A DNA stretch of 64,000 bases from Candidatus Gastranaerophilales bacterium (lineage in GTDB: Bacteria > Cyanobacteriota > Vampirovibrionia > Gastranaerophilales > Gastranaerophilaceae). The stretch spans positions 62,001-126,000 of the forward strand of contig CALUPW010000003.1 of NCBI GenBank assembly GCA_944322785.1, in the 5' to 3' direction. Made by a program: the position numbers and the translations under genes. The notes under the pieces are model-generated. The model was not told the DNA's origin and did no database searches. It was given only the letters and a program-made list of their open reading frames with translations. Shown here piece after piece: positions 20,273-24,237 of the stretch (position 1 is its first letter; each line of letters starts with the position of its first letter).

Positions 20273-20349
20273 TGGGGCGCCTGATGGGATTCGAACCCAT
20301 GCATATCGGAACCACAATCCGAGGTCTTGACCACTTGACGACAGGCGCC
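20273..20349 (-). tRNA. tRNA-His (GTG anticodon)
   Basis: It folds as a cloverleaf of 77 bases including encoded CCA (20273-20275). The acceptor stem GCGCCTG pairs with CAGGCGC. The extra 5' G (G-1, at 20349) opposite discriminator C is the hallmark of tRNA-His. The anticodon arm is TCGGA-TTGTGGT-TCCGA with anticodon GTG. The T arm contains GGTTCGAATCC. Confidence 0.97.
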
Positions 20350-20442
20350 ATTTATATTTTTTACTTAATCATCATAACATGAAAATATTTTTTGTCTATA
20401 GATTTTTATAAAACCCAAAAACTAATTGAAAGGAATAGCATT

Positions 20443-20982
20443 ATGGGCACAGTAGAACCAATAAGAAACTTACATGATTTAAAAAAGATAGAACAATTGT
20501 TGTCCTCAAATACAAGGGATTTAGTGCTTTTTACCCTTGGTACAAACAGTGGACTTAGAATCTCTGATATTCTTGCACTTGATGTCGGAGATGTGAAGGA
20601 TAAAACATATATCCAATTAACAGAAAAGAAAACTAAAAAAATAAAGAAATTTCCGATAAATTCCAAACTTAAAACTATGCTAAAAGAGTTTACTAAAAAC
20701 AGAATAAACGATGAACCGTTGTTTACCACAAAATTCAAAAACAGACTTAGCAGAGTGACTGCATATTACACAATTCGTAATGCCTGTCAAAAAGCAAAAC
20801 TTGATGAAAAATTCGGTACACACACAATGAGAAAAACCTTTGGCTATCATCATTATAAAAAATATAAAGATATTGCAATGCTTCAAAAAATATTCAATCA
20901 TTCAAATCCTGTTATTACCTTAAAATACATCGGAATTGAACAAGAAGAAATTTATAACAGTTATTTGAATTTTATTTTATAA
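20443..20982 (+). CDS. Short tyrosine recombinase (core catalytic domain only)
   Basis: The 179-residue product starts at the ATG at 20443 after AAAGGA. A full set of catalytic residues is visible: R39 (SGLRISD), K in the beta-hairpin EKKTKK (about 62-66), H127 and R130 (HTMR), H153 (FNHSNP) and Y162 (LKYIG). It lacks the N-terminal SAM-like core-binding domain of XerC/D and most phage integrases. This size resembles the FimB/FimE class of DNA-inversion recombinases. Two inverted core-like sites lie immediately downstream, making them likely substrates. Confidence 0.9.
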   Translation: MGTVEPIRNLHDLKKIEQLLSSNTRDLVLFTLGTNSGLRISDILALDVGDVKDKTYIQLTEKKTKKIKKFPINSKLKTMLKEFTKNRINDEPLFTTKFKNRLSRVTAYYTIRNACQKAKLDEKFGTHTMRKTFGYHHYKKYKDIAMLQKIFNHSNPVITLKYIGIEQEEIYNSYLNFIL

Positions 20983-20984
20983 AT

Positions 20985-21011
20985 TATACATTTTATTTGA
21001 AATGTATAGAA
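20985..21011. repeat. Left inverted repeat, recombinase core-like site
   Basis: Perfect 27-bp inverted copy of 21115-21141. Its first 24 bases are TATACATTT, six bases (TATTTG), then AAATGTATA: two 9-bp inverted arms around a 6-bp asymmetric spacer, as in Xer/Cre/FimB-type core sites. Confidence 0.85.
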
Positions 21012-21114
21012 ATTTTTATAATTATTATAATACAAATATATTTATTATTAAAAATATGTTAAAATATATAGTTTTTAATTCTTGAACAATTTGGAAAAGC
21101 CTCTGTTTACGGGG
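21012..21114. other. 103-bp segment between inverted sites, possible invertible promoter
   Basis: This AT-rich non-coding segment is flanked by the inverted repeats. In the present orientation it contains TGTTAAAAT (21057-21065), an extended -10 reading toward the sugar transferase; inversion would turn it toward the recombinase. Other TATAAT hexamers (21017, 21026) lack a -35. Promoter identity is uncertain. Confidence 0.5.
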
Positions 21115-21141
21115 TTCTATACATTTCAAATAAAATGTATA
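21115..21141. repeat. Right inverted repeat, recombinase core-like site
   Basis: This is the exact reverse complement of 20985-21011, with the same 9-6-9 arm and spacer layout. It lies 37 bases before the sugar transferase ATG. Confidence 0.85.
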
Positions 21142-21177
21142 GAAAAATTGCAGTAAAGTAAAAGAGGTTCATTTATC

Positions 21178-22545
21178 ATGATAAAATCACTATCCAAATC
21201 TGTTGTTCTGTTATTTTTATACGACTTTGCGGTTATTTTCTGTTCTACATTAATATTTTACAAATATTTCAATCTACCGGAAAATTATTTCGGCTCGATA
21301 ACAATAATAACTCTTCTCGTCGGAATGTTTACTCTATTTTTAAAAGATAACTACAAAATACGGGAATTTAATATTACATTAAAAAATATTTATTTACTTT
21401 TTGAAGCTGTTGTTTTTGCAATATTTCCGGCCTCAGTAATATTGTTTATATTTAATAGGGATTTAAATTCTATATATTTTGTTTTATTAAATTTATTTAC
21501 TATATGGTTATTACTTCTGCTATACAGAATTATTTTTCATTATTATCTTTTCAATTTGAAAAGGGTTAAAAATGTTTTAATTATAGGAGGTGGTCATCAA
21601 GCGGAAGTTGTTTCCGAACTGATTAATGAAAAATACGCTTTAAAAATGAATGTTGTTGAACAGTTTGAATATACCAATTGTGATAATAATTATGAAACAA
21701 TTAACAATTATCTGTGCAGCTTGTCTGAAAAAATTAAAAAATTAAAAGTTGATATTATAATAACAGCAAAAGATGAACCTTTTGACGAACTTTTTATACT
21801 TTCATTAATATCAAAAGATATTATTCCGAAAAATGTAAAAATTTACAGAATGTATGATTTTTATGAACTTGCTACAGGAAAATATTTTATTGATGAGCAT
21901 TCCATTAATGAATTAATTTTCTATTTTAATGAGCACAAATCAAAACTTTATGATTTTTGTAAAAGAATTTTTGACATAATTTCAGCCGCAATTATTTTGA
22001 CAGTAACGCTGCCGATAACAGGATATATCGCTCTGAGAGTAAAGCTTACGGACGGGAAGTCACCATTTTTTACTCAGGAAAGAGTTGGTAAAAACGGAAA
22101 AATATTTAAAGCATACAAATTAAGAACAATGTATGACAATGATTTTATCCCGAAAGACAACAAAAAAGTCGGCTATGTAGAAAATCAGGATGAAGACGAC
22201 AGAGTTATTCCTTTTTGCAAATTTGTACGTAAAGCAAGATTTGATGAAATATTCCAGATGATAAATATATTAAAAGGCGAAATGTCAATAGTAGGTCCAC
22301 GGGCCGAATGGACAAAAGTTGTCGAAGTTTATCAAAAAGAAGTCAAAGGATATCCGCTTCGAATGATGGTAAATACAGCCTGGACCGGCTGGGCACAAAT
22401 TAATCAGGGCTATTGCTTTGCCTCAGACAATGAAGCAATAAAACTTCAATATGACTTGTATTATATAAAACACCGAAATCTTCTCTGGGATATTTCCATA
22501 CTTATAAAGGCAATTTTTCTTGCAGTAGGGGGTAGACATGCATAA
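21178..22545 (+). CDS. Polyprenyl-phosphate sugar-1-phosphate transferase (WbaP/EpsL-like)
   Basis: The 455-residue initiating glycosyltransferase for surface polysaccharide has four N-terminal membrane helices (residues 10-125), a Rossmann-like middle (VLIIGGGHQAEVV), and a further helix near 265. The C-terminal bacterial sugar transferase domain includes KRIFDIISA, GKIFKAYKLRTM and LKGEMSIVGPRAEW. It loads the first sugar onto undecaprenyl phosphate at the inner membrane. AGAGG lies 11 bases upstream. It overlaps the epimerase gene by 8 bases. The inverted sites just upstream suggest its transcription may be switched. Confidence 0.93.
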   Translation: MIKSLSKSVVLLFLYDFAVIFCSTLIFYKYFNLPENYFGSITIITLLVGMFTLFLKDNYKIREFNITLKNIYLLFEAVVFAIFPASVILFIFNRDLNSIYFVLLNLFTIWLLLLLYRIIFHYYLFNLKRVKNVLIIGGGHQAEVVSELINEKYALKMNVVEQFEYTNCDNNYETINNYLCSLSEKIKKLKVDIIITAKDEPFDELFILSLISKDIIPKNVKIYRMYDFYELATGKYFIDEHSINELIFYFNEHKSKLYDFCKRIFDIISAAIILTVTLPITGYIALRVKLTDGKSPFFTQERVGKNGKIFKAYKLRTMYDNDFIPKDNKKVGYVENQDEDDRVIPFCKFVRKARFDEIFQMINILKGEMSIVGPRAEWTKVVEVYQKEVKGYPLRMMVNTAWTGWAQINQGYCFASDNEAIKLQYDLYYIKHRNLLWDISILIKAIFLAVGGRHA

Positions 22546-23487: not shown

Positions 23488-24237
23488 CTAACTTATTCTC
23501 TGGAACATATATCCTATGCCACGGGCTGTTAATATAAGCTCCGGATTTGCCGGATCTGATTCAAGTTTTGAACGCAATCTTGAAATATGAACATCAACAA
23601 CTCTTGTGTCAATTCTATGATCCGGCGGATAAGCCCAAACATGCTGTAATATTTCATTTCTTGAAAATGCCTGCCCTGAATTATTAACAAGAAGTTCCAG
23701 CAGGCTGAATTCCATACCGGTCAAACGAATTCTTTCATTTTTGCGGAACACCTGACGGCGTGCCGTATCAATCTTGATATTGCCGGTTGTAATTACATTT
23801 TTGGTAACTTTTCCTGCCGGTGTAACTGATTCTCTGTTATTAGTACGTCGCAAAACTGCTTTTACACGGGCTTCAAGCTCTTTAGGTGAAAAAGGTTTGA
23901 TAACATAATCATCAGCACCTAATTCAAGTCCTGTAATTCTTTCGGAAACATCACCAAGAGCTGTCAATATTATAATCGGAACATCTGCGGTTCTTCTTAT
24001 TTCTCTTGTTACTCCGTATCCGTCCATTTTGGGCATCATTACATCCAACACAACCAAATCAGGATTGTATTTATTAAATGCTGCAACTGCTTCCTCACCA
24101 TCAGCCGCAGTATAAACATCATAACCTGCCATTTTTAAACGTGTTTCCAAAATACGTCTGATACTGGCTTCATCGTCTGCCAGCAAAATTCTTTGACGAT
24201 CTTCTGTTTCGTTTTGTAATTCAGCATTTTCAGTCAT
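23488..24237 (-). CDS. OmpR-family response regulator, RpaB-like
   Basis: A 249-residue two-domain regulator. In the receiver, acidic pocket D21-D22, phosphoacceptor D65 (VVLDVMMPK), T92 and K114 (IKPFSP). A winged-helix DNA-binding domain spans residues 150-245 (RLTGMEFSLLELL, VDVHISRLRSKLE). The segment ADDEASIRRILETRL closely matches cyanobacterial RpaB as I remember it, supporting a cyanobacterium-related host. No histidine kinase is adjacent, so it is an orphan here. The ATG follows AAGGAAAAG. Confidence 0.93.
   Translation of the reverse strand: MTENAELQNETEDRQRILLADDEASIRRILETRLKMAGYDVYTAADGEEAVAAFNKYNPDLVVLDVMMPKMDGYGVTREIRRTADVPIIILTALGDVSERITGLELGADDYVIKPFSPKELEARVKAVLRRTNNRESVTPAGKVTKNVITTGNIKIDTARRQVFRKNERIRLTGMEFSLLELLVNNSGQAFSRNEILQHVWAYPPDHRIDTRVVDVHISRLRSKLESDPANPELILTARGIGYMFQRIS

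Follow-up and report, generated by a model that had tools for sequence, protein, structure and literature searches.

The stretch of DNA analysed here (the window, 64,000 nucleotides) very probably carries a two-site DNA inversion switch, that is, a phase-variation switch with an outward promoter, in front of the genes for a sugar-phosphotransferase and an epimerase. This reading is based on what was observed: the two sites, the conservation of such sites, their occurrence together with a recombinase, and the natural inversion of the corresponding segments in relatives. Gastranaerophilales are gut relatives of cyanobacteria and are known mostly from metagenome assemblies. The window's genome has 1.95 Mb in 18 contigs, and the genome-wide statements made below rest on searches of this genome. 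The features of the locus are given in Table 1.

Table 1. Positions of the candidate switch and of its surroundings in the window.
Feature	Position	Strand	Remarks
tRNA-His	20273-20348		neighbour of the unit
Core-only tyrosine recombinase, 179 aa	20443..20982	+	candidate invertase; Pfam, alignment, AlphaFold model
Recombination site 1, left inverted repeat	20985..21011	+	27/27 complementary to site 2; fits the family 26-bp consensus
Site 1 spacer TATTTG	20994-20999
Invertible segment (candidate at this locus), 103 bp	21012..21114	.	enclosed by the repeats; counterparts in relatives found inverted
Promoter-like element TTTGTATTATAAT	21024..21036	-	points at the recombinase as assembled; putative function
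Recombination site 2, right inverted repeat	21115..21141	-	spacer equal to that of site 1, inverted orientation
Polyprenyl-phosphate sugar-phosphate transferase, 455 aa	21178..22545	+	first gene behind the switch
NAD-dependent epimerase/dehydratase, 300 aa	22538..23440	+	Pfam Epimerase PF01370, 5.1e-51
Response regulator	23488-24237		neighbour of the unit

Inverted repeats and recombination sites

Site 1 starts 2 bp past the stop codon of the recombinase gene. The sequence-only reading had described two perfect 27-bp inverted repeats around 103 bp, and this description is correct. Of all inverted repeats in the whole window that fit within 600 bp, this pair is the longest, with a runner-up of 16 bp, and its length is far beyond chance, the maxima in 30 dinucleotide shuffles of the window being 12-16 bp. 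The inverted arms around a 6-bp asymmetric spacer, also described in that reading, were read directly as the inner arms TATACATTT/AAATGTATA around TATTTG. Site 1 shows this spacer as written and site 2 shows it when reverse-complemented, so the sites are oppositely directed. The palindrome is perfect (12-6-12) in site 2, from which site 1 deviates solely in its outermost left bases. The locus thus has the inverted repeats around a short segment beside a recombinase by which an inverton is recognised. In the whole genome the exact site pattern occurs at these two places only, and matches with 3 mismatches are at the control level. A looser site pattern gave 39 matches on the window against a mean of 28.4, a count reached by 4 of 100 shuffles; it was rejected because the excess is slight and the matches are out of register with the sites.

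The recombinase

The recombinase matches Pfam Phage_integrase (PF00589) with 5.2e-24 over residues 21-165. In an alignment of 46, residues R39, H127, H153, and Y162 are invariant, as are K63, K66, and K68, and R130 is nearly so; as had been proposed, it is a complete core-only enzyme with its catalytic set. The best PDB fold matches of its AlphaFold model (mean pLDDT 80) are XerA, XerD, lambda integrase, and HP1 integrase, and these matches, together with the R-K-H-R-H-Y set in a Phage_integrase domain, place it in the tyrosine recombinase superfamily. There is little beyond the catalytic domain; the Xer profile match begins at position 100 of 263, the N-terminal part being absent. With NCBIfam, the protein falls below the equivalog cut-off for XerC/XerD/XerA (best 90.7 bits versus 220) and those for the FimB/FimE type (PRK09871, 35.7 bits versus 222; PRK09870, 27.4 versus 221). 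The ATG at 20443 fits the relatives as the start codon; the list of open reading frames also holds an alternative TTG start at 20392.

Of 286 genomes sampled in the order, 196 have members of the recombinase family at a threshold of E 1e-40, with up to ten copies per genome, and in a sample of the phylum all of the matches listed fell into the same family of bacteria. Among 80 titled loci, the closest named relatives are from Candidatus Gastranaerophilales assemblies. The window's genome has four further copies, 52-60% identical, one of which is interrupted by stop codons. Very similar recombinases with mostly unrelated downstream sequence and no clear repeats (L176-L200, L018:5446-5985) form a subgroup that perhaps serves island integration. 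Many other phage contigs (L231-L304, IMG/VR) encode core-only recombinases with 41-51% identity, mostly without downstream repeats.

Recurrence of repeats and spacers in the family

Among 100 loci with enough sequence, inverted repeats with a score of at least 15 within 450 bp downstream of the recombinase were found at 47, compared with 0 of 300 shuffles and 2% upstream; about half of the family members are without clear repeats. In the tree, the window recombinase belongs to a supported clade of nine, and repeats are present in 7/7 clade members with enough downstream sequence. Where the sites can be centred, they follow a common 26-bp plan, roughly CnnnACAwwTT....AAwwTGTnnnG. The co-occurrence and the conservation of the sites support the adjacent recombinase as the putative catalyst of the inversion.

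All of the 6-bp spacers are asymmetric, and they are identical within the locus in 41 of 45 loci, a set that includes a few near copies. Within a locus, the mismatch per base is 1.9% in the spacer versus 21% and 16% in the arms, although the loci were chosen by repeat similarity, which inflates within-locus identity overall, not obviously more in the centre than in the arms. Between loci, spacers are identical in 3.7% of comparisons. An asymmetric spacer matched within its locus is what strand exchange across the spacer demands, and it makes inverted sites invert.

The genes behind such switches were compared in a set of 50, with some near copies and the window's own gene among them. Glycosyltransferase 2 leads the Pfam families with 10 cases, followed by Stealth (5) and UDP-galactopyranose mutase (3), and Bac_transf, epimerase, GT8, and GT9 are found twice each. 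Other recombinase copies in the window's genome adjoin Type II/IIG restriction-modification genes. At one of the loci in this genome (L019:4621-5440; G000:C1, about 286.6 kb), a 23-bp inverted repeat (87%) with 140 bp between its arms comes after a recombinase paralog and immediately precedes the methyltransferase and helicase genes of a Type II/IIG system; this may be a case of phase-variable restriction-modification. At five loci (L103, L117, L129, L143, L154), the gene that immediately follows the switch encodes another core-only recombinase, which recalls the paired FimB/FimE.

Natural inversions in relatives

A complete two-site flip was found between two different assemblies, L097 and L098, the former with a recombinase of the window's clade. 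Their 129-bp segment is identical at 129/129 positions only if one is reversed, and the flanks agree in the forward direction (499/500 before the segment and 300/300 after it). Partial flips were found at three-site loci. L010, a paralog from the window's own genome, differs from L060, which comes from a congener, in that the stretch from site 2 to site 3 is inverted (147/149) within forward flanks (191/193 on the left and 74/74 on the right), and in L161 versus L162 the inverted part matches at 154/155. The comparison set has one genome per species, and these flips were seen at related loci, not at the window locus. Several other closely related locus pairs have equal orientation, and no flipped example other than L097/L098 came up when the L098 switch was used as a DNA query.

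Contig ends were considered as a sign of mixed orientation, but the excess (8 downstream versus 2 upstream within 430 bp, p=0.055) was too weak to be used. A three-site switch lies behind a recombinase at a contig end of the window's genome (L017:4108-5091, G000:C1), by phage-type transposase and terminase-small-like genes, and is partly inverted relative to the congener L060. In L098 (172-6859), phage terminase and endolysin genes are followed by the recombinase, the switch, and a Stealth gene, and this is apparently a prophage-borne surface-modification switch.

Promoter-like element and proposed mechanism

After inversion, the promoter-like element of the segment would sit at 21090-21102 on the + strand and face the transferase gene. 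The motif TTTGTNNTATAMT is perfect in 8 of 55 segments versus 0.5% of shuffles, and present with at most one mismatch in 18 of 55 versus 6%; this enrichment is partly circular because the motif was noticed in some of the same segments before counting, and several of the 55 are homologous. In the 14 two-site loci with a clear direction, the element lies 12-36 bp from the segment end it points at, facing the gene in four and the recombinase in ten. A standard sigma-70 scan of this AT-rich region predicted promoters not clearly more often than in shuffles, and in a naive test TATAAT was not enriched in the sense upstream regions of these genomes. Since generic promoter scans fail to discriminate in DNA as AT-rich as this, the direction of the element and the OFF call are to be read as inferences; on this footing, the window was most likely assembled in the OFF state.

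The proposed mechanism can be described as follows. The recombinase would bind the arms of the two 26-27-bp sites and exchange strands across the 6-bp spacer, and since the sites are inverted, the 103-bp segment would flip. The segment would bear an outward-pointing promoter near one end. In the ON orientation, this promoter would drive the sugar-phosphotransferase and epimerase genes; in the OFF orientation, it would point back into the recombinase gene. The outcome would be that cells with an alternative surface glycan and cells lacking it coexist in one population. Of the inversion switch of surface-sugar genes put forward in the sequence-only reading, the inversion is supported by the flips in relatives, the matched spacers, the enrichment of repeats, and two orthologous loci, the flips being those of related loci; we infer that the recombinase acts on these particular sites, that a promoter is present and which way it faces, and what the switch does to surface glycans.

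It is also possible, with a distinctly lower probability, that the inversion is real but acts otherwise than by moving a promoter, for example by way of a leader or terminator whose effect on the transcript comes after initiation. Control past the initiation step is known for the flagellar switch of C. difficile (PMC5386303), and the generic promoter scan stayed near the chance level. However, no terminator-like site was found in the switch region, and the outward-pointing promoter-like element 12-36 bp from the segment end in 14 loci argues for a promoter.

Orthologous loci

Two transferase orthologs, 74% (L201/L305) and 68% (L202/L096) identical, lie behind an orthologous recombinase and repeats, and the epimerase is kept after the transferase in both. 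The arms are alike across the window and these two loci, and the spacers are TATTTG, TGTATG, and TATTCA, each matching within its locus; TATTTG and TATTCA come from the systematic comparison of spacers, and TGTATG was read off the locus sequence directly. The more distant transferase paralogs that were examined have no recombinase motif within 1.5 kb. A distant paralog in the same genome (G000:C11:61296-62654), 56% identical, has one in-frame TAA.

L096, one of the closest named relatives of the recombinase, is identical in sequence to G034, which belongs to the same family as the window. Its recombinase (L096:5001-5540) has Cys in place of the catalytic R130, and its repeats are well kept; because of this replacement, the L096 switch may be locked or decayed. 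Its segment aligns better in the window's orientation, and no flip was seen there. The loss of R130 in this ortholog, and the single orientation available for the window locus, would also suit a fossil switch, formerly invertible and now locked in this strain. This is unlikely, as the catalytic residues of the window recombinase are all intact and its repeats are perfect over 27 bp.

Genes behind the probable switch and genomic setting

The sugar transferase and the epimerase, which had been placed directly after the segment, are confirmed by profile matches. The former matches Pfam Bac_transf (PF02397, 1.4e-47) and NCBIfam EPS_sugtrans (2.4e-82), and the epimerase gene, with the match given in Table 1, overlaps the transferase gene by 8 bp. 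The two genes are probably co-transcribed.

Recombinase, switch, transferase, and epimerase form a unit of about 3 kb between tRNA-His and a response-regulator gene. In 11 congeners the latter two adjoin each other, which makes the unit look like an accessory insertion. The same unit is found between tRNA-His and the response regulator in G077, from another genus, and a third copy adjoins tRNA-Glu (L096:8074-8145). With this setting, and with the match of the recombinase to the phage integrase family PHROG 216 (7.5e-56), the repeats could be thought of as attachment sites of a mobile element, the recombinase moving the cassette rather than working a switch. This is very unlikely, since the sites are internal to the unit, inverted with 103 bp between them, rather than marking its ends, no other place in the genome has the exact site pattern, and inverted sites yield inversion, not excision. 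By another reading, the repeats would serve as operator palindromes or RNA hairpins to which the recombinase or some other protein binds, with no inversion taking place. The palindromic form of each site speaks for this, but the reading is hardly tenable, since an operator does not need an asymmetric spacer that is constant within each locus and varies from locus to locus, and it leaves the inverted segments between near-identical relatives unexplained.

Comparison with known systems

The inverted repeats of fimS have 9 bp. The systems fimS/FimB-FimE, hyxS/FimX, and ipuS/IpuA-IpuB resemble the inversion switch proposed for the window in that a small tyrosine recombinase is encoded next to a short promoter segment, which has inverted repeats at its ends and surface genes downstream (PMC6083910). 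The ipuS repeats have 7 bp (PMC6083910), whereas the window sites, in contrast to those of both fimS and ipuS, are 26-27-bp palindromic, two-arm sites. Unlike in E. coli fim-type switches, one recombinase abuts its own switch, and it reaches 27-36 bits against FimB/FimE-type cut-offs of 221-222. Therefore, the earlier comparison with fim holds for the mechanism and not for the recombinase.

In C. difficile, the tyrosine recombinase RecV (cwpV, flg) likewise acts with inverted repeats and surface structures downstream; the flg switch has 21-bp inverted repeats around 154 bp (PMC5386303). More than one switch is served by RecV, and the repeats of these switches are dissimilar (PMC5386303), whereas the window recombinase gene directly abuts its switch. 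The Bacteroides capsule switch has an invertible promoter before polysaccharide genes, as is proposed for the window. Its recombinase, Mpi, is a serine recombinase. Mpi controls at least 13 switches (PMC5386303), whereas the window has a tyrosine recombinase, which is not of the Mpi type, with one local switch. The capsule comparison made earlier is thus apt for the outcome but not for the enzyme.

By both profile and structure, XerC/XerD/XerA have the closest catalytic domain, although the window recombinase is below the Xer cut-offs and lacks the N-terminal core-binding domain. The dif site has an arm-6 bp-arm layout, which the window sites share, but here there is an inverted pair of sites instead of dif. 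PhaseFinder-type inverton catalogues of gut bacteria contain similar short invertible segments near surface and invertase genes (PMC11892184). In the papers searched, which left out most subscription journals, no invertons from Gastranaerophilales were found, nor any account of phase variation for Gastranaerophilales or Melainabacteria. Overall, the fim-like mechanism is already known, and the recombinase family and the host group appear to be undescribed in this respect in the searchable papers.

Implications for Gastranaerophilales

One tentative extension, which we consider somewhat less probable than not, is that the switch is part of a self-contained phase-variable cassette, in which recombinase and target genes move along with it. 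Genomes of Gastranaerophilales would then carry several such cassettes with private site specificities, on chromosomes and prophages, and surface glycans, phage-encoded surface modification, and restriction-modification might be shuffled independently in each cell. Since the family is present in about two thirds of the sampled genomes of the order and its sites are recognisable, switch states could be read from existing metagenomes. The finding raises the question of which surface structures Gastranaerophilales vary, and whether phages or the host drive this variation.
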